Part shown: positions 11,541 to 45,112 of the stretch, in pieces
Layout: every line of letters begins with the position of its first letter
Position numbering within the stretch: the first letter of the stretch is position 1
Origin: an uncultured Candidatus Actinomarinales bacterium
Lineage (GTDB): Bacteria; Actinomycetota; Acidimicrobiia; Actinomarinales; Actinomarinaceae
Assembly (NCBI GenBank): GCA_943840565.1
Contig: CALSUY010000001.1
Location: forward strand, 310,001 to 374,000
Direction: 5' to 3'
DNA: 64,000 bases
The notes under the pieces: generated by a model
Seen by the model: only the letters and a program-made list of their open reading frames with translations
What the model was told of the DNA's origin: nothing
Database searches by the model: none
Program-made: the position numbers and the translations under genes

Positions 11541-12432
11541 CGAATCATCTAAAACTGTTTTTCTTGCAATGTCTGTCAATTTTTCTATAGGTATTGCTAA
11601 ATCAATCATTGCAACAATAACTATGTCTAGTGCAATGTTTTCAGAAGCTATACATTCATTTGTAGATACCGGTAACCAATTTCTCTTATGGTTTGGAATA
11701 AAGCAATCAAAAAAGGTAGATGCAAGAATATATCCCTTAGGGAGAGGCAGAGAAGAATATTTTTGGACACTTGTCGTAGCTGTGCTTATCTTCACTATTG
11801 GAGGACTTGTTTCTTTAGAACATGGAATAGAATCTCTTTCACATCCTAAAAAGCTTGAAAACCTAGCAATTTCAATAACATTATTAATTGTTTCGATAAT
11901 ACTCGAGTCTTATGTGTTAAAAAAAGCCATTACAGAGCTAAAAAAGGGACAAGATAATAAAAAAAGTGTTGTTGGACTATTAAAAGAATCAACAGATGGA
12001 CCCTTAATAGCGATTGTAGTGGAAGACTTTGCAGCAACTTTAGGACTTTTTATAGCATTAGTCGGAACCATACTTTCATCACTTACCCAAAATTCGATAT
12101 ATGACTCAATATCTGCAATTTCTATTGGAGTTCTACTCATGGTGTCTGGTTTATTTTTAGGGTATGAAATGAAACATTTAATTACTGGAGAAAGTATTTC
12201 ACAAGAGAAACTTAAGTTAATTGAAAATATAATTAATAAAAATAAAAATATATCTAATATAACAAACTTAAAAATATTACCAATAGGAAGTAAGCAATAT
12301 TTAGCGTTAGTAAAACTTGATTACAAAGACTCCCTAGGTGATGTAGACATAGTTGAAATTAATACAGCTCTTAAGAATGAAATAGTAGAAACAGAGTCTA
12401 CAATCACAGAAATTTACTTTAATCCTCAATAA
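11530..12432 (+). CDS. Cation diffusion facilitator family transporter
   Basis: The protein exports divalent metal ions (Zn, Fe, Mn or Co) by proton antiport. I place the start at ATG 11530 rather than at the upstream 11494, because that start lies deep inside glutaredoxin; this gives 300 residues. Visible are the TM2 metal motif SEAIHSFVDTGNQFLL (His and Asp four apart), the TM5 partner ESTDGPLIAIVVEDFAAT with another Asp pair, six hydrophobic segments, and a C-terminal cytoplasmic ferredoxin-like domain (ISNITNLKILPIGSKQYLAL). Metal specificity cannot be assigned. Confidence 0.92.
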   Translation: MATNESSKTVFLAMSVNFSIGIAKSIIATITMSSAMFSEAIHSFVDTGNQFLLWFGIKQSKKVDARIYPLGRGREEYFWTLVVAVLIFTIGGLVSLEHGIESLSHPKKLENLAISITLLIVSIILESYVLKKAITELKKGQDNKKSVVGLLKESTDGPLIAIVVEDFAATLGLFIALVGTILSSLTQNSIYDSISAISIGVLLMVSGLFLGYEMKHLITGESISQEKLKLIENIINKNKNISNITNLKILPIGSKQYLALVKLDYKDSLGDVDIVEINTALKNEIVETESTITEIYFNPQ

Positions 12433-12446
12433 GATAAAATAATCCT

Positions 12447-12818
12447 ATGGCAATAAATAAAGACCATTTAACTGCAGAACAAATACAAGTTACACAATTT
12501 TGTGGGACAGAGCCTCCATTTTCTGGAAAACTTCTTAATGAAAAAAGAATTGGTAATTATGTATGCGCAGTTTGCAAAGAAATATTATTTGATTCCTCAA
12601 CAAAGTATGAATCAGGCTCAGGATGGCCAAGTTTTTTTGATGCAGTTGCAGAAAAAATAGAAACTAAAGAAGATACAACTCTAGGCATGATAAGAACTGA
12701 AATACTTTGTAAAATTTGTTCTTCCCATCTTGGCCACATATTTCCTGACGGTCCAAAACCTACAGGGAAAAGGTATTGTGTCAACAGTCTTAGCTTAGAG
12801 TTTCAAGTAAATGAGTGA
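12447..12818 (+). CDS. msrB: Peptide methionine-(R)-S-oxide reductase
   Basis: MsrB repairs the R-epimer of methionine sulfoxide in proteins using thioredoxin. The 123 residues include zinc ligands CAVCKEILF and CKICSSHLGH, the substrate loop SGSGWPSFFDA and the catalytic cysteine motif RYCVNSLSLEF near the C-terminus. A resolving cysteine may be the one in QFCGTEPPF. It overlaps the DCC-family gene downstream by eight bases, and with the glutaredoxin upstream suggests a redox-repair cluster. Confidence 0.96.
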   Translation: MAINKDHLTAEQIQVTQFCGTEPPFSGKLLNEKRIGNYVCAVCKEILFDSSTKYESGSGWPSFFDAVAEKIETKEDTTLGMIRTEILCKICSSHLGHIFPDGPKPTGKRYCVNSLSLEFQVNE

Positions 12819-13119
12819 AATTTTTGTAGACCAAAACTGTACTGTTTGTAGTGCTTATGGAAAATTTATTAATAAAAAAAATAAAAATGTAAGCGTGTCT
12901 AATCAGCTTGATCTTAGTAATGAGGACATAGCTAGAGATGAAGTTGTTTATGTAAAGAATCAAGAAAAATTTTATGCTTCTGATGCAATTATTGAGTCTG
13001 TCGCCGATCTGGGTGCATTTTATAAAATTATTAAAATTTCATATATAATTCCGAAATTTATTAGAAACTCAATTTATAAGTTAATTTCTAAAAATAGAAA
13101 AAGGTTTTTTTATAAATAA
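12811..13119 (+). CDS. DCC-family (DUF393) thiol-disulfide protein
   Basis: A 102-residue protein. The N-terminal IFVDQNCTVCSAYGKFI is the DxxCxxC pattern that names the DCC family, a thioredoxin-like group of unknown substrate. The C-terminal half contains DAIIESVADLGAFYKI, which matches the conserved A..Al...lg..w.l repeat of the family. No signal peptide is seen. The short overlap with msrB suggests co-expression and a shared redox function, which is inference. Confidence 0.8.
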   Translation: MSEIFVDQNCTVCSAYGKFINKKNKNVSVSNQLDLSNEDIARDEVVYVKNQEKFYASDAIIESVADLGAFYKIIKISYIIPKFIRNSIYKLISKNRKRFFYK

Positions 13120-13159
13120 ACTTAATAAACTAATTCAAACAAAAACATTTAAAACATTT

Positions 13160-13330
13160 GTGTTGTTTTCTATATTCCGGGCTATACATGGCGTTGTTGT
13201 TCTAATAGTCTTTTATTACTTTGGATATAAAGCAAATGTAGGTTTTGAAGTTTATATACTTTATTTAATCGTTTCCATTCTTCTATCAAGGCAAATTTTT
13301 AAAAGATTAAAAAAAAGGTTTAATCTCTAA
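13160..13330 (+). CDS. Small hypothetical membrane protein
   Basis: An open frame from GTG 13160 to TAA 13328-13330 encodes 56 residues: one clear hydrophobic helix (HGVVVLIVFYYFGY), a second (VYILYLIVSILLS) and a basic tail (RQIFKRLKKRFNL), typical of a cytoplasm-facing positive end. The frame is open further upstream but has no ATG, GTG or TTG there. It overlaps the convergent yajQ end by 11 bases. I do not recognise a family; it could be a degenerate piece. Confidence 0.45.
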   Translation: MLFSIFRAIHGVVVLIVFYYFGYKANVGFEVYILYLIVSILLSRQIFKRLKKRFNL

Positions 13331-13809
13331 AGTTTCCAAATGATAGATGTATATCATAATTTTTATCTTTAATCTCGTTCATAATTGACTGCAGAGAGTC
13401 CCTTTTTTTTGAAGTTACACGTATCGAACCATCTTGAATAGCAGGCTTGCATTTTTTTATCTTTTTCTTTAATAAATTTAACTATTTCTTTAGCATCGAC
13501 AGTCTCAATCCCAGTTTTTAGGGTGTAAACTCTTTTGTTTTCGGATGGTGTTTCTTCATCTGAAAAGTCAGATAAAAACTTTATAGAAATATTTCTTTTT
13601 GCAAATTTTTCTCTTAATACTTGATCTGCGGCTAAAAGTCGATCTTTCGTGGCACTATTAATACTTACAGTTGACTCTGAACTATTAATAGAAGTACTCG
13701 TATTTTTAAAATCATATCTGTTAACAATTTCTCTTTTGCTTTGGTCTACAGCATTTAAAACTTCTTGTTTGTCGAATTCTGAGGTAATGTCAAAACTTGG
13801 CATAATCAA
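13320..13809 (-). CDS. YajQ family nucleotide-binding protein (one frameshift)
   Basis: YajQ/DUF520 proteins bind RNA or cyclic-di-GMP and have two ferredoxin-like domains of about 160 residues. The N-terminus SFDITSEFDKQEVLNAVDQS and REIVNRYDFKNTSTSI are diagnostic. The first frame goes wrong after KKMQA. In another frame the expected tail AIQDGSIRVTSKKRDSLQ and the ending GNFRD are present and stop at 13320-13322. One extra base near 13444-13448 explains this. The restored protein is about 162 residues, the normal size. ATG at 13809 overlaps the upstream small gene by four bases. Confidence 0.88.
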
Positions 13810-13994
13810 CTCCCGTATTTTTCTTTAATATAGTTAAGTTCACTTTCAATCTTATTGATACTTTTTTTTAAAACTTTGATTTCTTCAACTTTATCAAAGT
13901 TCTCATAGAGTTTTATCTTGGTTTCTAACGACCTATACCTGATTAGTAAAAAAACTATTATTATTAAAAGACCTACCCAAAATATATTTTCCAT
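13806..13994 (-). CDS. Small single-pass membrane protein with coiled coil
   Basis: The 62-residue product has an N-terminal transmembrane helix (IFWVGLLIIIVFLLIRY) followed by a charged heptad-like segment (ETKIKLYENFDKVEEIKVLK and KSINKIESELNYIKEKYG), so it probably sits in the membrane with a cytoplasmic coiled coil. No family is recognised. Four-base overlap with yajQ and a three-base gap to crcB make it part of the minus-strand operon trmL-crcB-this gene-yajQ. Confidence 0.7.
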   Translation of the reverse strand: MENIFWVGLLIIIVFLLIRYRSLETKIKLYENFDKVEEIKVLKKSINKIESELNYIKEKYGS

Positions 13995-13997
13995 AAT

Positions 13998-14361
13998 CTA
14001 ATTTACCATTTTACTACCTATGTATACACCTATTAATGCACCAAAGATTGAAAGAAGTACTGTTGAAAAAAAATAACCAAGTGTAGATAATTGCGATTGG
14101 GTATTTAATTCTATTAGGTCAAAGGTAAATTGTGAATAGGTAGTAAACCCTCCAAGTATGCCTGTAAGTAGGAAAATACTAACCAAACTATTTTCTGCAA
14201 CTATTGAATATATTATTCCAAATAAGAATGATCCAAGTACATTTATAAATAATGTCGAGAACTGTGGTAACGAAGATACATTTATTAGTGTATTTAATAA
14301 GAAACCTTAAGACTGTACCTATTCCACCACCAATGAAAACTAGTAAAACTTTACTATACAT
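13998..14361 (-). CDS. crcB: Fluoride efflux channel CrcB (one frameshift)
   Basis: CrcB/Fluc is a small four-helix dual-topology fluoride channel. The start codon ATG 14361-14359 opens [20 protein letters not shown], the family N-terminus GGxxGxxxR. The remainder is in another frame: [19 protein letters not shown] (the conserved N..G.f..G) and [19 protein letters not shown] (the signature GxxGGxTTFS). A one-base insertion around 14292-14304 joins the parts into about 120 residues. Actinobacteria often carry two crcB copies in tandem; only one is here. It overlaps trmL by eight bases. Confidence 0.85.
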
Positions 14362-14800
14362 TTTTCTGCCTCAGGTATTCATACCCAACTATTGCAACTG
14401 AGTTAGCTAAATTTATACTTCGCGAATTATCATCCATTGGTATTGTTAAAAGATATTTTTGCTCCAAAATAATATCTTGTGGTAATCCAACAGATTCCGG
14501 ACCAAAAACTAAGTAATCAAATGATAGGAGATTAGCAGTCCCAATAGTTTTTGCTTTCCCTTTGCCGAAAGATATGCGATTGCTTTGTTTTGGTTTTTTT
14601 GAATAAATTCATCCCAATTTTCATAGATACTGACCGTAGCTAAATCATGATAATCCAAACCAGCACGGCGAATCTTATTCTCCTGAAAGCTAAAACCAAA
14701 TGGTTTTATTATATTTAATGGAACTACCTGTATTGGCAGAGAGTCGTATGCAAGCTCCAACATTTCCCGCAATCTCTGGCTGATAAAGTACTATTTCCAC
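14354..14800 (-). CDS. trmL: tRNA (cytidine(34)-2'-O)-methyltransferase, TrmL type (two frameshifts)
   Basis: This SPOUT methyltransferase modifies the wobble base of tRNA-Leu. GTG 14800-14798 opens [20 protein letters not shown] (family: lveP.ip.NtGniaR). After a shift near 14720 the frame reads [20 protein letters not shown] then GLDYHDL and YENWDEF. After a second shift near 14551-14558 it reads [15 protein letters not shown] and [19 protein letters not shown], the knotted SAM site, to TAG 14354. The restored length is about 149 residues. Two indels in one short gene argue for sequence error. A leucine wobble modification enzyme is notable beside the AAG tRNA-Leu 5.8 kb away. Confidence 0.85.
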
Positions 14801-14851
14801 AATGTAATTATATTCCTATTCAAGAACCATATAGTATGTAAAATATTTAGT

Positions 14852-16408
14852 ATGAAACAATTTACAGGCTTATTTCTGCCGTCTTTCAGAAGCTTCAAAA
14901 GAGCTCTGAAGCGAAGTATCTAAAACTTCAAATTCTAGAGTTAGGTTTATCGACTTTGTAAAAGTTTCTGGTTTGTTGCTAATTATTTTTAATACAAACT
15001 ATTTTCTAGATTTTGAAAAATCAAGTGGAGAATTTATTATTTACAATCGTACTGTTTTAGATAGTTCCTTAACTCCTGTTACTTGGTTGACAGCGGGGAT
15101 GGCTCTATTTTTCTTTTCTACAGGTTTCACCAATAAGATTGCTTGGTATTCAAATGTTGGCAGGGACGGAAGTCAGTGGAAATTTTTGACAGATAGGGTG
15201 GATGGATTGATGGGATCTGTTCTTGTTTGGATCTTCTTCATTACAGTGTCTTTGAACGCAGCAACAGAATTAATTTATTTTCCTAAGTATATTACAAATC
15301 AACAAGATGGCATTCTCACTGTCACAGAATTTATCATGTGGCCATTATGGCTTGTGTCAATTTATTTAGTAGTTGTATTGTTTTGTCCACTAACGATATA
15401 TCTACATAAAAAGAATCCGTATTTAACTCTTTCTTTTTTGATATCTAGCTTGGTGTTAATAGACAATATTGAATTCAATTTATCTCTCTCGTATATAAAG
15501 CTGTTTAATTATTTAGATTTTTTGGTTAACAATACACCAGCTAGGTTATTTTCTAGCCGATGGAAAAATCTTTGCATTCAGAAAATCGTTGTTTGCAGGA
15601 ATAACATTTTTTTCTTACAGCTATCTATCTTATATTCACACAACAACAGAACAGTATTTATCAGTTTCGAATTATCGGTTACTTTCTTTTTCAAATGAAG
15701 ACCCTCCAACCACTGTATATTTAATTTCATCTATAGGGCTAATTTCACTCTTTCTATTATTTCGTGATCAAGTCGAATCTTTATTAAATAAGAAAATCAT
15801 TTGGTCTATCTTCTCGACAATACATGCAAATATTTATACATTGTTTCTCTGGCACGTTGTTTTATTCTTTTTTCATTAGCTATTTTCCAACTTTTATAAT
15901 CTATTACCCACTAGTAATATTTTTAATTATTTTTTGTTTTGGTAATTACGAGCGACAAACTTTTAGACTTTCCCGTTCTTTAATCAAGAGAGTGAATCCA
16001 CTCCAACCATGGCCCACACCAATAAAAGCAAGGTTATCATACAGTAATTTTCTTCTTGCTTGGATATCTTCAATGTTGATTTTGATTGGGATATTGCAAA
16101 TAACTCTTGGTGGTATTGGTTTGTCAGGGTTCTTTTCTTTAAGGCAGTTATATTTGTTTTCAGGAAATACATTTGAAGCATTTGTTAGGATCGTTATTGG
16201 TCTGTTATTACTTAATGTTACGATTAGACGAAAAGATTTAAAAAACCAGTTACTAGTAATTGGTATTCTGTCTCAGATTATTACATTAGTTGTTAGGTAT
16301 CAACTTTATAACTCAGTAACTACACTTGAGCTCTACATGAGTATTTTTTTAATAGGGTTTTTTCTGATACTGATATTTAATAATCGTAACTATAAATCAA
16401 TAGCTTGA
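14852..16408 (+). CDS. Membrane acyltransferase family 3 (several frameshifts)
   Basis: A large multi-pass O-acyltransferase (Acyl_transf_3/OafA-like) split over three frames. The order read is VRFIDFVKVSGLLLIIFNTN (family start R..DF.K...l), LTPVTWLTAGMALFFFSTGF, DRVDGLMGSVLVW, MWPLWLVSIYLVVVLFCPLT, then IHQLGYFLADGKIFAFRKSL in a second frame after a T-run at 15518-15523, and ISYFPTFIIYYPLVIF in a third after the T-run at 15868-15873. A fourth shift near 14915 would link it to ATG 14852. About ten transmembrane helices and roughly 515 residues are expected. Substrate is unknown; cell-surface lipid or glycan acylation is the family role. Confidence 0.72.
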
Positions 16409-16418
16409 GTCATAATAT

Positions 16419-17453
16419 ATGAATATGAAAAAAGATGAATCTAGACAAGAATTATTAAATAGAGCATTTATTTATGTGCTATTTATTGGCATTTCAGTAA
16501 TAATATTTCTAAGAGTTAAACCTTTACTCTTTGATCTTTTTGTAGCTGTAGTTTTAGCAGCATTGGCAGAACCAGTTGTTTATAGACTTTCAAAGAAATT
16601 CGGTCGAAAGATATCTGCCCTCATTTCTGTCGCACTGTTACTTCTGGTAATATTTGGAATAATCTTTTCTCTTATTCCAATAATGGTTCAAGAGATTTAC
16701 TATATCTCTACACAATTACCAACATATCTAGATAACCTTTTGGATTATTTCAATAGAGAAGGCTTTACAATATCCAACCAGTCTCTAGATTTGGAATCAC
16801 AATTCAGTACATTTATTAACACTTATGGAGGAACAGTTGGAGAAACAGTAGTTTTTGCTGGCCAAGGGGTCTTAAGTGCTTTTGGTCATTTCTTTATCAT
16901 TTTCTTCTTTTCATTCTATTTGATTAGTGAAGGTGAACATTGGAGAGAAAATCTAAAGAAAAATATCGCACCGAAATACTCAAATCTCATTGAACAAGTA
17001 TGGACAATCGGAGTTTCTAAAGCTGGTGGATTTATTGTGGCAAGAGTAATTCTTGGGATACTTGCAAGTATTGTGTTCACAGTATCTTTTCTTGTGATTG
17101 GGTTACCATCTGCTGTAGCTTTGGGTATTGCTGCAGGTGTTCTTTCACAACTAATCCCCGTGATAGGAACATTCCTAGGTGGAATTGTTCCAGTTTTAGC
17201 CTCTATATCACTTGGTGTTAACTATGTTCTATATACATTGATTGTTTTATCTGTGTATCAGTTAATTGAAAACTATTTCATAAGTCCAAAAGTTACTCAG
17301 TCAACAATGGAGATCCATCCGGCTGTTGCAGTATTTTCAACTATATTTGGAGCTTATACGGTGGGTGCTGTTGGCGCAATCTTAGCATTGCCAGTTGCTG
17401 CAACAATTCAAGGTGTAGTAGGAACTATTATAGAGAATAGCAAAAATGAATAA
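16419..17453 (+). CDS. AI-2E family transporter (PerM/YdiK-like)
   Basis: A 344-residue polytopic protein with about seven helices. The C-terminal half carries the family's conserved signature (LVIGLPSAVALGIAAGVLSQ, LIPVIGTFLGGIVPVLASIS and YQLIENYFISPKVTQSTMEI). Family members have been linked to export of autoinducer-2 or to sodium/proton antiport; the substrate is unproven. It begins ten bases after the acyltransferase and overlaps the following gene by eight bases. Confidence 0.9.
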   Translation: MNMKKDESRQELLNRAFIYVLFIGISVIIFLRVKPLLFDLFVAVVLAALAEPVVYRLSKKFGRKISALISVALLLLVIFGIIFSLIPIMVQEIYYISTQLPTYLDNLLDYFNREGFTISNQSLDLESQFSTFINTYGGTVGETVVFAGQGVLSAFGHFFIIFFFSFYLISEGEHWRENLKKNIAPKYSNLIEQVWTIGVSKAGGFIVARVILGILASIVFTVSFLVIGLPSAVALGIAAGVLSQLIPVIGTFLGGIVPVLASISLGVNYVLYTLIVLSVYQLIENYFISPKVTQSTMEIHPAVAVFSTIFGAYTVGAVGAILALPVAATIQGVVGTIIENSKNE

Positions 17454-17739
17454 TTTTATAAATATACCTATTAATGCTGTGAAATCTATTGATAATCTTC
17501 TCCAACACTTTAAAGAGGAGACTGTTGACGAGGTTGAGAACTCAATAAAGTCATTAAAAAGAAACTTCAAAGCCGGTAACTATTTAGCTCTTGCGACATT
17601 ATTTATCATTATTGGTGTAGCGTCTATTTTAAGTCAGATGTTTATTGGAAACTATTTCCTACAAGCTATGACATATTTTTCTATGGCTCTATTATCCTTG
17701 ATTGCATTCGGATTAATTGTATGGAGAATATTGAAATGA
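17446..17739 (+). CDS. Small two-helix membrane protein (holin-like/DUF1469-type topology)
   Basis: The 97 residues consist of an amphipathic N-terminal part (INAVKSIDNLLQHFKEETVD), then two transmembrane helices (YLALATLFIIIGVASILSQM and FSMALLSLIAFGLIVWRIL). The topology resembles the actinobacterial 'phage holin family' proteins often found near cell-envelope genes, but the match is by topology only. It overlaps its neighbours on both sides (8 and 4 bases), so it is co-translated with the AI-2E transporter and the next small gene. Confidence 0.6.
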   Translation: MNNFINIPINAVKSIDNLLQHFKEETVDEVENSIKSLKRNFKAGNYLALATLFIIIGVASILSQMFIGNYFLQAMTYFSMALLSLIAFGLIVWRILK

Positions 17740-17891
17740 CAGAATATAGAGAAACATATAACGAACTGAAGAAAAATATTAATTCAGAGAATTCAAAAGT
17801 CATTTCTTTCCTATTTTTTGGAATACTAGTTGGTAGAGCTTACGAAAAATATCGCAAGATTAAAAAATCAATCCTTAAAAAACGTTCGTGA
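17736..17891 (+). CDS. Small hypothetical protein, 51 residues
   Basis: The frame from ATG 17736 (overlapping the previous stop as ATGA) to TGA 17891 encodes a polar N-terminus (TEYRETYNELKKNINSENSK), one short hydrophobic stretch (VISFLFFGILVGRAY) and a lysine-rich tail (EKYRKIKKSILKKRS). No family is recognised. Perfect ATGA and GTGA overlaps on both sides argue that it is a real gene. Confidence 0.6.
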   Translation: MTEYRETYNELKKNINSENSKVISFLFFGILVGRAYEKYRKIKKSILKKRS

Positions 17892-17977
17892 ATAAGTCAC
17901 TACAAAAATTCGTAGCAATCGTCTTAGCTGCTGGTGTTGTATTTTCTACGATTGCCTATTTTTTACTGTTAATATAA
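17888..17977 (+). CDS. 29-residue single-helix membrane miniprotein (Prli42-like)
   Basis: GTG 17888 overlaps the previous TGA; TAA is at 17975-17977. The product is a short basic head (MNKSLQKFVA) and one membrane helix (IVLAAGVVFSTIAYFLLLI). Size and layout resemble Prli42/DUF4044, the tiny membrane anchor of the Listeria stressosome, and similar miniproteins of actinobacteria. The resemblance is one of architecture; no stressosome genes are visible in this window. Its place between other overlapping genes and five bases before trmI supports translation. Confidence 0.5.
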   Translation: MNKSLQKFVAIVLAAGVVFSTIAYFLLLI

Positions 17978-42353: not shown

Positions 42354-43550
42354 TATAAAAGATATTATCTCTACCTTTAAAAATGGAGAGATGATTATTT
42401 TAATTGATGATGAAGACAGAGAAAATGAGGGTGATTTAGTAATCTCTTCCAAAAACTTAACACCTGAACATATTAATTTTATGATAACTCATGCAAAAGG
42501 ATTAGTTTGCGCACCAATTTCATCCGAGATTGCATCTAATTTAAAACTTGCTCTTATGGAAGGAGTTAACAATGAAATGGAAACTCAATTTACTGCCTCA
42601 GTTGATCTTAAAGGTGAAGGTGTTACCACAGGGATTTCTGCTGAAGACAGATATAAGACAATAATTGGTCTTACTAATAAAGATGCCACAAGAAATGATT
42701 TCAGTATTCCAGGTCATATTTTTCCATTGCAATCCATGGATGGGGGAGTTTTAAGAAGAGCTGGGCATACAGAAGCTGCAGTAGACTTATGTAAAATATC
42801 TGATCACTATCCAGTTGCAGTTATCTGTGAGATTATAAATGATGATGGCTCAATGGCTAGACTTGAAGACCTTGAGTTATTCGCACAAAAACATGATTTA
42901 CCGATTGGTACGATTAAAGACTCTCATCGAATATAGGCTGGAGACAAAAACACCTAGTATCTTTTATATCAAAATCTAAAGTTCCAACAGAATACGGTGA
43001 CTTTAATGCGCCATGTGTTTAGAGATAATAATGACAATACAGAACATATTGCTATGACCTACGGTGATTATTTATCAGAAGATGCAACGATGGTCAGGGT
43101 TCATTCAGAGTGTCTTACTGGTGATGTTTTATTTTCGAAAAAGATGTGATTGCGGTTATCAACTTGAAGCTGCTTTTAAAACAATTGTAGAAAATGAATC
43201 TGGCGTTATTCTTTATGTTCGTGGTCACGAAGGTCGTGGAATCGGTCTGGGAAATAAGATCAAGGCTTATTCTCTTCAGGATGAGGGGAGCGACACTGTA
43301 GATGCAAACCTTCGAATTAGGTTTCCAAATGGATCAAAGAGATTATGGAACTGGTGCGCTTATTTTAAGAGAACTTGGAATAACAAATATGAACTTACTT
43401 ACCAATAATCCCTCTAAGAGGGCTGGCTTAGAAGGTTTTGGGTTAAATATTATAAAAAGGACACCTCTTTTGGGTAAGATCACAGAGGACAATACACATT
43501 ATTTGCAGACCAAAAAAAATAAGATGGGCCATAATTACGATGAAGAATAA
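42343..43550 (+). CDS. ribBA: Bifunctional DHBP synthase / GTP cyclohydrolase II (at least five frameshifts)
   Basis: RibBA makes both precursors of riboflavin. The RibB half (42343 to about 42920) is intact: [37 protein letters not shown] and [13 protein letters not shown]. The RibA half is present but spread over all frames: [52 protein letters not shown] (zinc cysteines), [40 protein letters not shown] and [19 protein letters not shown]. Shifts map to about 42922, 42946-42950, 43003, 43138-43142 and 43313, most of them one extra base. All catalytic motifs survive, so I treat it as one real gene of about 400 residues with sequence errors. Confidence 0.85.
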
Positions 43551-43936
43551 GGTAGCAATAATAAATACTGATTATTACGGAGAATACACTAAAAAACTTC
43601 TTGCCGGTGCAACCTCAAGCTTAGATGGTGACTTTGAATATGAGACTTTTAGAGTTAAAGGTGCATGGGATATTGTTTACAAAGTCAATTCCTTAACTGC
43701 AACTTATGATAAATTTATTGTCATTGGTATTATTTGTAAGGGTGATACAGATCATTATGAATATATTTCTTCAGCTGTTGCGAACTGGACTCATGGATCT
43801 TACAATCAACAAAGAAGTCTACATTGCTAATTGTATATTGAACGTCCATAATCTTGAACAGGCGGCAAAACGCTGTGAGGATGGCAACAATAAAGGTATA
43901 GAAGCTGCATTGGCATTAAAAGATATTTTTAGTTGA
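43540..43936 (+). CDS. ribH: 6,7-dimethyl-8-ribityllumazine synthase (one frameshift)
   Basis: RibH condenses the two precursors to lumazine. The first frame carries [33 protein letters not shown] (usual vpGafEip) and FIVIGIICKGDTDHYEYISS (usual GvvirGeT.Hfdyi). An extra base near 43784-43787 breaks the frame, after which GLMDLTINKEVYIANCILNV, EQAAKR and NNKGIEAALALKDIF complete the enzyme (about 131 residues, slightly short). It overlaps the ribBA end by 11 bases and is the last gene of the riboflavin operon. Confidence 0.88.
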
Positions 43937-43959
43937 TATACTTTTTAATAGTATATAAT
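43933..43959 (+). promoter_or_regulatory. Putative promoter for the infC operon
   Basis: TTGATA at 43933-43938 and TATAAT at 43954-43959 are 15 bases apart, a good -10 with a slightly short spacer. It overlaps the ribH stop and precedes a leader of about 85 bases before infC. Confidence 0.5.
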
Positions 43960-44011
43960 TAAAGTCAAGCGAACAAAGTTCCACCTACTGTGAAAAATAG
44001 TATGGTAAATT

Positions 44012-44034
44012 AACAGCTTCGTGCTGTTTTTTTT
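44012..44034 (+). terminator. Hairpin terminator in the infC leader (possible attenuator)
   Basis: AACAGC and GCTGTT form a six-pair stem around TTCGT, followed by an unbroken T-run to 44034. It lies between the proposed promoter and infC, 17 bases before the infC start. It may end riboflavin operon transcripts, or act as an attenuator controlled by the upstream leader, as known for infC-rpmI-rplT operons in other bacteria. Confidence 0.72.
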
Positions 44035-44051
44035 ATTGAGAGGAGAAAGTT

Positions 44052-44567
44052 ATACCAGAACTTAAGATAAACGAAGACATTAGGTCAAAGGAGTTGTTAG
44101 TTATTGCTCCAGATGGCGTACAAGTTGGAGTTTTAGAATTAAAAAAAGCAATTATTGTAGCTGAGGAACTTGGGTTAGATCTTGTGGAGGTATCTCCCGA
44201 AAGCAAACCACCAGTTGCTCGATTAATGGATTATGGTAAATATAAGTATGAGCTTTCTCAAAAAGCAAAAGAATCAAGAAAAAATCAAGTTAAGATAAGC
44301 GTCAAAGAAGTTCAACTTAAACCGAAAATCGATACGAATGACTACAATATCAAATTAAATCAATCTAGAAAATTCTTAAGAGATGGTGATAAGGTAAAAT
44401 TCACAATGAGATTTAGAGGAAGAGAAGCAGAGCATCCTGAATTTGGACAAAGAATATTAGATAAACTGAAGGATGAACTTAGCGAAGTTGCTGAAGTGGA
44501 ATCAACTTCTCGTCCTGATGGAAGGTCATTAACTATGGTGTTAGCACCAAATGGAGGTAGAAAATGA
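44052..44567 (+). CDS. infC: Translation initiation factor IF-3
   Basis: IF-3 keeps ribosomal subunits apart and checks the start codon. From the first canonical start (TTG 44094) the conserved N-terminal INEDIRSKELLVIAPDG would be cut. The frame runs upstream to an ATA at 44052, six bases after AGGAG (44041-44045), giving 171 residues, the normal length. Rare start codons are a known self-control device of infC. Further motifs are LVEVSPESKPPVARLMDYGK then YKYE, the linker, VKFTMRFRGREAEHPEFGQR and the C-terminal domain. It overlaps rpmI by four bases. Confidence 0.94.
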   Translation: MPELKINEDIRSKELLVIAPDGVQVGVLELKKAIIVAEELGLDLVEVSPESKPPVARLMDYGKYKYELSQKAKESRKNQVKISVKEVQLKPKIDTNDYNIKLNQSRKFLRDGDKVKFTMRFRGREAEHPEFGQRILDKLKDELSEVAEVESTSRPDGRSLTMVLAPNGGRK

Positions 44568-44752
44568 AACATAAAACACACAAAAGCTCATCCAAAAGAG
44601 TTCGTGTTACTGGTACTGGGAAATTTATGAGACGTAGAGCGCATACTTCTCATTATAAATTAGCCAAGGGGAGTAACACCTGGGGAAGATTAAAAAGAGA
44701 TGTTGAAGCATCTAAAGGTGATAGTAAAAAGTTAAGAAAGTTGTTGAGTTAA
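44564..44752 (+). CDS. rpmI: 50S ribosomal protein L35
   Basis: A 62-residue, very basic protein with the L35 start KHKTHKSSSKRVRVTGTGKF (usual pKmKThkaaaKRfk.TgsGk) and the RRAHTSHYKLAKGS motif. It binds 23S rRNA. The start overlaps infC by four bases and the stop is directly followed by the rplT ATG, the conserved infC-rpmI-rplT order. Confidence 0.97.
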   Translation: MKHKTHKSSSKRVRVTGTGKFMRRRAHTSHYKLAKGSNTWGRLKRDVEASKGDSKKLRKLLS

Positions 44753-45112
44753 ATGGTCAGAATTAAAAGATCTGTAAATAGTAAAAAATCAAGAAGAAAG
44801 ACTATGAAGCAAGCAAAGGGTTATACCGGAGCTAGAAGTAGAACCCTACGTGCAGCCAAAGAACAGGTTATGCATGCAGGTGCTGATTCTTTCACGCATA
44901 GAAAAGATAAAAAAGGTGATTTCAGAAAACTTTGGATTAGTCGTATAAACGCTGCAGCACGATTACATGACTTATCATATTCCAAATTTATAAATGGTTT
45001 AAACAAAGCAGATATAAAAGTTGATAGAAAAATTCTTGCAGATATTGCTATAAATGATCCAAAAGGTTTTAAAAAATTAGTAGATGTTGCTAAAGATAAC
45101 TTAAATGGCTGA
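44753..45112 (+). CDS. rplT: 50S ribosomal protein L20
   Basis: The 119-residue protein shows VRIKRSVNSKKSRRKTMKQA and KGYTGARSRTLRAAKEQVMH (usual RVkrg..ar.rrkkilk.akGy.gar) then LWISRINAAARLHDLSYSKF, an essential early assembly protein of the large subunit. In other bacteria L20 represses this operon by binding the leader. It overlaps pheS by eight bases. Confidence 0.98.
   Translation: MVRIKRSVNSKKSRRKTMKQAKGYTGARSRTLRAAKEQVMHAGADSFTHRKDKKGDFRKLWISRINAAARLHDLSYSKFINGLNKADIKVDRKILADIAINDPKGFKKLVDVAKDNLNG

Follow-up and report, generated by a model that had tools for sequence, protein, structure and literature searches.

The window, the whole 64,000-nucleotide stretch of DNA analyzed here, derives from a genome of Candidatus Actinomarina (Acidimicrobiia), a small marine actinobacterium. 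Within it, genes named from their sequence follow the order infC, rpmI, rplT, pheS and pheT, and the L20-encoding operon infC-rpmI-rplT sits downstream of an RNA leader of about 70 nt, which begins just after a conserved TATAAT hexamer and has the architecture AAGCG-P1-CCACC-P2-terminator. The features of the locus are the following:

43954..43959, +, -10 promoter hexamer TATAAT; the genus leader alignment has TATAAT or TATACT here
43967..43971, +, AAGCG, 5' end of the leader; invariant in the genus, AAGNG across the phylum
43971..43981, +, helix P1, GAAC (43971-43974) with GUUC (43978-43981); pairs kept in 23 of 23 genus leaders and nearly invariant there; both partners change across the phylum
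43981..43985, +, CCACC between P1 and P2; invariant
43983..44006, +, helix P2, ACCUACU with AGUA, a bulged U (44003) and GGU; both partners have changed at two pairs within the genus, and the phylum set retains the ACC/GGU base
43969..44022, +, proposed antiterminator, GCGAA (43969-43973) with UUCGU (44018-44022) and GUU (43978-43980) with AAC (44012-44014), P2 nested inside; from truncated-RNA folding, pair counts and duplex permutation tests
44012..44034, +, intrinsic terminator, AACAGC-UUCGU-GCUGUU and U-tract; conserved in the genus
44041..44045, +, Shine-Dalgarno sequence AGGAG; from sequence and the Shine-Dalgarno-anchored rule
44052..44567, +, infC (IF3), AUA start codon through stop codon (44565-44567)
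44564..44752, +, rpmI (L35), overlapping the infC stop; open reading frame and position, name from sequence
44753..45112, +, rplT (L20), proposed ligand gene; open reading frame and position, name from sequence

Upstream of the leader, at 42921-43785, RibBA-type and RibH-type frames are broken by six single-base insertions relative to a 96%-identical relative (L002), which are due either to decay or to poor assembly quality in this part; from infC to pheT none of such insertions was seen against the same relative. Elsewhere in the window, three regions (12430-13371, 13825-14909 and 17451-17972) each run for more than 350 bases with no long open frame and are possibly further broken genes or non-coding regions.

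The start codon of infC

The Shine-Dalgarno sequence AGGAG (44041-44045, + strand) is followed by six nucleotides and then by ATA (44052-44054), exactly where the original prediction had placed them, and the codons around this point read TGA GAG GAG AAA GTT ATA CCA GAA CTT AAG ATA AAC. The frame is open from an in-frame TGA at 44037, upstream of the ATA, to the stop that ends at 44567. Translated from the ATA, the product matches the TIGR00168 profile from position 5 with 210 bits (cut-off 60), is in register with the solved IF3 chain 5me0_Y (residue 5 on residue 5), and matches both IF3_N and IF3_C; judged by these alignments, it is a complete protein. The first in-frame ATG, GTG or TTG is the TTG at 44094, and a start there drops positions 1-11 of the Pfam IF3_N profile, in agreement with the earlier claim that the conserved N-terminus of IF3 extends upstream of this codon.

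An alignment of infC starts in related genomes, proposed earlier as a check, revealed ATA at the corresponding position (query residue 2) in 31 of 31 genus loci, and never ATT or ATC. Isoleucine is present in all 31 loci at five protein columns, and since the codons vary among ATT, ATA and ATC in the other four, the ATA is conserved at the level of the codon. It is the sole codon-invariant isoleucine column among the five, while only 4 of the 100 amino-acid-invariant columns in the genus alignment are codon-invariant. This difference makes an internal isoleucine codon or a base error very unlikely; the latter had been raised as a possibility for position 44052, and independent assemblies carry the same ATA. 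The comparison supports AUA as the codon at which infC of Actinomarina begins, as had been predicted.

A start elsewhere, either at an upstream ATG or TTG of the relatives or at the internal TTG, would turn the ATA into upstream sequence or an internal isoleucine codon, and we regard this as hardly credible. An in-frame ATG or TTG does lie 15 nt upstream of the ATA in 21 of 29 genus relatives, and an ATG or GTG at another position in relatives had been named in the original prediction as an observation that would count against it. This upstream codon, however, overlaps the terminator U-run, lacks a Shine-Dalgarno sequence, is not conserved, and is missing or out of frame at eight loci (the window and seven others), and translation is therefore unlikely to begin there; the ATA alone is codon-invariant, and the internal TTG costs the protein the beginning of IF3_N. 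A gene finder limited to ATG, GTG and TTG would be expected to choose the upstream codon, and gene callers restricted in this way are likely to misplace infC in this lineage. Misannotated infC starts have been documented in Streptomyces (PMC5472188). The genus loci in which an ATG or TTG inside the terminator U-run is likely annotated as the infC start include L005, L008 and L021.

A start-calling rule anchored on the Shine-Dalgarno sequence was applied to the deduplicated genus loci and to 78 other infC loci. It chose ATA in 29 of 29 genus loci, and at the other 78 it chose ATC (54), ATA (16), ATT (6), GTG (1) and ATG (1), which amounts to AUC, AUA or AUU at 76 of 78; the locus with the ATG call (L054) also has a conserved ATC preceded by AAGGAG. 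A further class sample of 40 members gave ATC in 23, ATA in 13, ATT in 1, CTG in 1 and no call in 2, that is, AUC, AUA or AUU in 37 of 40. Starts of this type are the rule for infC, and the predicted AUA, although real, is less unusual than had been implied. It is of a kind already known: infC starts at AUU in E. coli and at AUC in Streptomyces (PMC5472188), and retapamulin profiling places the S. aureus start at AUA (PMC13009471). As in these three systems, a strong Shine-Dalgarno sequence precedes a lineage-conserved, non-canonical AUN start in Actinomarina (PMC5472188, PMC13009471), which, unlike E. coli, the only one of the three with proven infC autocontrol, is known from sequence alone. 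The AUA start thus bears out, in an uncultured lineage, a rule that was already known. Among the Acidimicrobiia, loci such as L057, L067 and L159 form a second set with AUA, rather than AUC, as the likely infC start, and AUA is also the likely start in single loci labelled Thermoleophilia and Deltaproteobacteria (the group of L050, L053 and L099, of which L050 uses AUC).

A leader RNA in the genus and across Actinomycetota

The 31 genus leaders share AAGCGAA...GTTCCACC, then a hairpin with an ACC/GGU base and a bulged nucleotide, and then the terminator hairpin with eight U. The transcript is expected to start at about 43965-43967. A simple promoter scan did not report the TATAAT at 43954, and a TTGATA at 43933 would leave merely a 15-nt spacer to it. 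The hairpin followed by a T-run that had been noticed at 44012-44034 is present there as the one terminator-like site found, versus 0.1 in shuffles, and none of the 31 distinct genus leaders lacks it; one of its pairs shows a double change from A-U to G-C. The covariation check suggested for the leader also favors the structure: across 23 distinct genus leaders, 98.5% of cells are paired, three pairs are changed on both sides, and 13 double-changed cells were counted versus 3.5 in shuffles. A short frame, AUG UUC CAC CUA/CUG CUG UGA (MFHLL), is held by L004, L021 and most other genus leaders; attenuation through a leader peptide was rejected because its AUG is AAG in the window and in several relatives, the nearest ones included.

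Outside the genus, the core AAGNG-P1-CCACC occurs upstream of infC, no more than 400 nt from its start, at 55 of 72 loci (chance about 0.001 per locus), and control sequence contained 2 matches in 854 kb. In the further class sample the strict pattern was found in 21 of 40 leaders, versus 0.002 in shuffles, and several of the remaining ones show near variants by eye; strict terminator-like sites were present in only 15 of the 40. When a covariance model of the genus (R1) was run on 301 kb of outgroup DNA, the three best matches were all infC leaders on the right strand. A phylum model (R2), in whose alignment row L101 is misaligned, gave 14 matches in a blind search of 80 genomes, most of which had no match under the strict filters; the 8 best were all infC leaders, and 10 in all lay at infC. 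On the genome of the window itself, the phylum model returned no match and missed the known leader site, so that its negative result there carries no information. A second match of the genus model in this genome (19 bits), near a short HU-like open reading frame, was not taken as another copy of the leader, and a loose pattern, GGAG-N-CTCCCACC without AAGNG, performed no better than a reversed control. The core motif was absent from all 19 infA leaders scanned; a leader shared with infA was rejected on this ground, and the leader looks specific to its operon.

Rfam 15 returned no family over cut-off for the leader. The L20_leader family (RF00558) scored 16.2 bits at the window against a gathering threshold of 58.7, in a match that was not repeated, and it exceeded its cut-off in 0 of 30 relatives versus 2 of 14 control genomes; since the weak matches in relatives also lay away from infC, assignment of the leader to this family was rejected. 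None of the 20 r-leaders listed in PMC7247131 is the AAGNG-P1-CCACC-P2 leader, and the papers searched contained no description of it as a motif; most subscription papers lie outside that search, and an earlier description is possible. We consider the leader more important than the start codon, as a conserved RNA ahead of infC across the phylum, Mycobacterium included, that is absent from Rfam 15. That this leader and its terminator control infC-rpmI-rplT by attenuation across Actinomycetota, including mycobacteria, in series with IF3 control at AUA or AUC, is a tentative proposal to which we assign just short of even odds.

A proposed alternative pairing and model of control

In folds of leaders truncated at the terminator loop, P1 was often open, and its strands paired with the terminator's loop and 5' arm; minimum-energy folds with upstream partners for four or more of the five arm bases, however, numbered only 7 of 31. 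The antiterminator pairs in 95.9% of cells in the genus, but with hardly any variation, and GCGAA-UUCGU is broken in some relatives. In a set of 22 leaders, most of them from Acidimicrobiia (L053 bears the label Thermoleophilia) and put together once the pairing was already known in some of them, P1 gave -15.3 kcal/mol with its own terminator arm, -13.9 with the arms of other genomes (P = 0.0002) and -9.9 with shuffled arms; the permutation of P1 and arm within and between genomes gave P = 0.0012 for 46 non-genus leaders and was not significant for the genus only (P = 0.09), and relatedness among the leaders weakens all three P values. Read from these comparisons, the leader most likely combines an intrinsic terminator with a mutually exclusive alternative pairing, and would be a transcription attenuator. 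The attenuator-like leader of the original prediction is thereby supported and enlarged, with two upstream helices, a phylum-wide core and a plausible antiterminator pairing.

In the model that we propose, infC-rpmI-rplT would be transcribed from a promoter just upstream, with its -10 element at 43954. In one fold, P1, P2 and the terminator would form and transcription would stop at about 44034, whereas in the other the P1 strands would base-pair with the terminator's loop and 5' arm, and transcription would read through. A ligand that stabilizes AAGNG-P1-CCACC-P2 would favor termination, and the leading guess, from the position of the leader and the Bacillus precedent, is free L20 made by the operon itself. 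Readthrough transcripts would be translated from AUA, a codon that IF3 discriminates against, and excess IF3 may lower its own synthesis, by analogy with E. coli and Streptomyces (PMC5472188). Attenuator and AUA may in this way provide two layers of control. We assign the model as a whole, with attenuation most likely through L20 and IF3 control at AUA, a probability of about 0.6. The sequences show where the AUA lies and that it is conserved, the conserved helices, the terminator and the complementarity that a switch requires; that termination occurs in the cell, which ligand acts and that IF3 feeds back are what we infer.

The position of the hairpin between ribH and infC would also suit a mere terminator of the upstream rib genes, with infC transcribed from a downstream promoter or by readthrough. 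This is very unlikely, given that a conserved TATAAT lies after ribH and before the leader, that P1 and P2 stand between this hexamer and the hairpin, that leader and terminator stay with infC in distant relatives, and that the 17 nt from the U-run to the ATA showed no clear promoter. As for the second layer, AUA could simply fix a low output of IF3 without responding to it, and reporters in S. aureus do express AUA and AUU starts at about 10% of AUG (PMC13009471); we hold this to be rather unlikely, since in E. coli and Streptomyces the level of IF3 affects how strongly genes with non-canonical starts are expressed (PMC5472188).

The identity of the ligand is more evenly contested. There is a substantial chance, though below one half, that the attenuator senses IF3, L35 or another factor, or that it has no ligand and acts as a partial terminator that sets the level of expression. 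The failure of RF00558 to match the Actinomarina leader points this way, as do comparisons with the 23S rRNA of the window's own genome, which gave short, chance-level matches. An AA dimer and two successive G-C pairs of 23S rRNA are reproduced in known L20 leaders (PMC7247131); both could be matched in the Actinomarina leader, though the comparison did not demonstrate mimicry. Sensing of L20 is favored by the precedent of the Bacillus leader of infC-rpmI-rplT, whose ligand is L20 (PMC6097659), and operon specificity together with conserved, unpaired AAG and CCACC segments would be expected of a protein-binding leader.

Relation to known leaders

A concrete switch model of this type can be tested in culturable relatives, and the leader would enlarge the set of known ribosomal leaders. 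L20 feeds back on its own operon in E. coli, where control of rpmI-rplT is translational and exerted inside the operon. Feedback of L20 on its own operon is likewise proposed for Actinomarina, whereas the control there would be transcriptional and located ahead of infC. In Bacillus, binding of L20 to the leader of infC-rpmI-rplT stabilizes a terminator (PMC6097659). The L20-interacting leader of B. subtilis (RF00558) precedes the same operon, and competition between its intrinsic terminator and an alternative fold has been proposed (PMC6097659), but the core sequence of the Actinomarina leader differs from it, and the 30 relatives gave no match over cut-off. In M. tuberculosis, RNA from the 5' UTR of infC (Rv1641) is abundant (Arnvig et al., PMC3207917), and mycobacterial loci carry AAGTGGAG...CTCCCACC together with a terminator-like hairpin; homology of this 5' UTR with that of infA has been reported (PMC3207917), whereas the core motif was found at 0 of 19 infA genes. 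A leader-like AAGTGGAG...CTCCCACC core was also observed at L163:1490-1900, in a locus with no infC, where the downstream sequence reads by eye like an IS256-type transposase.
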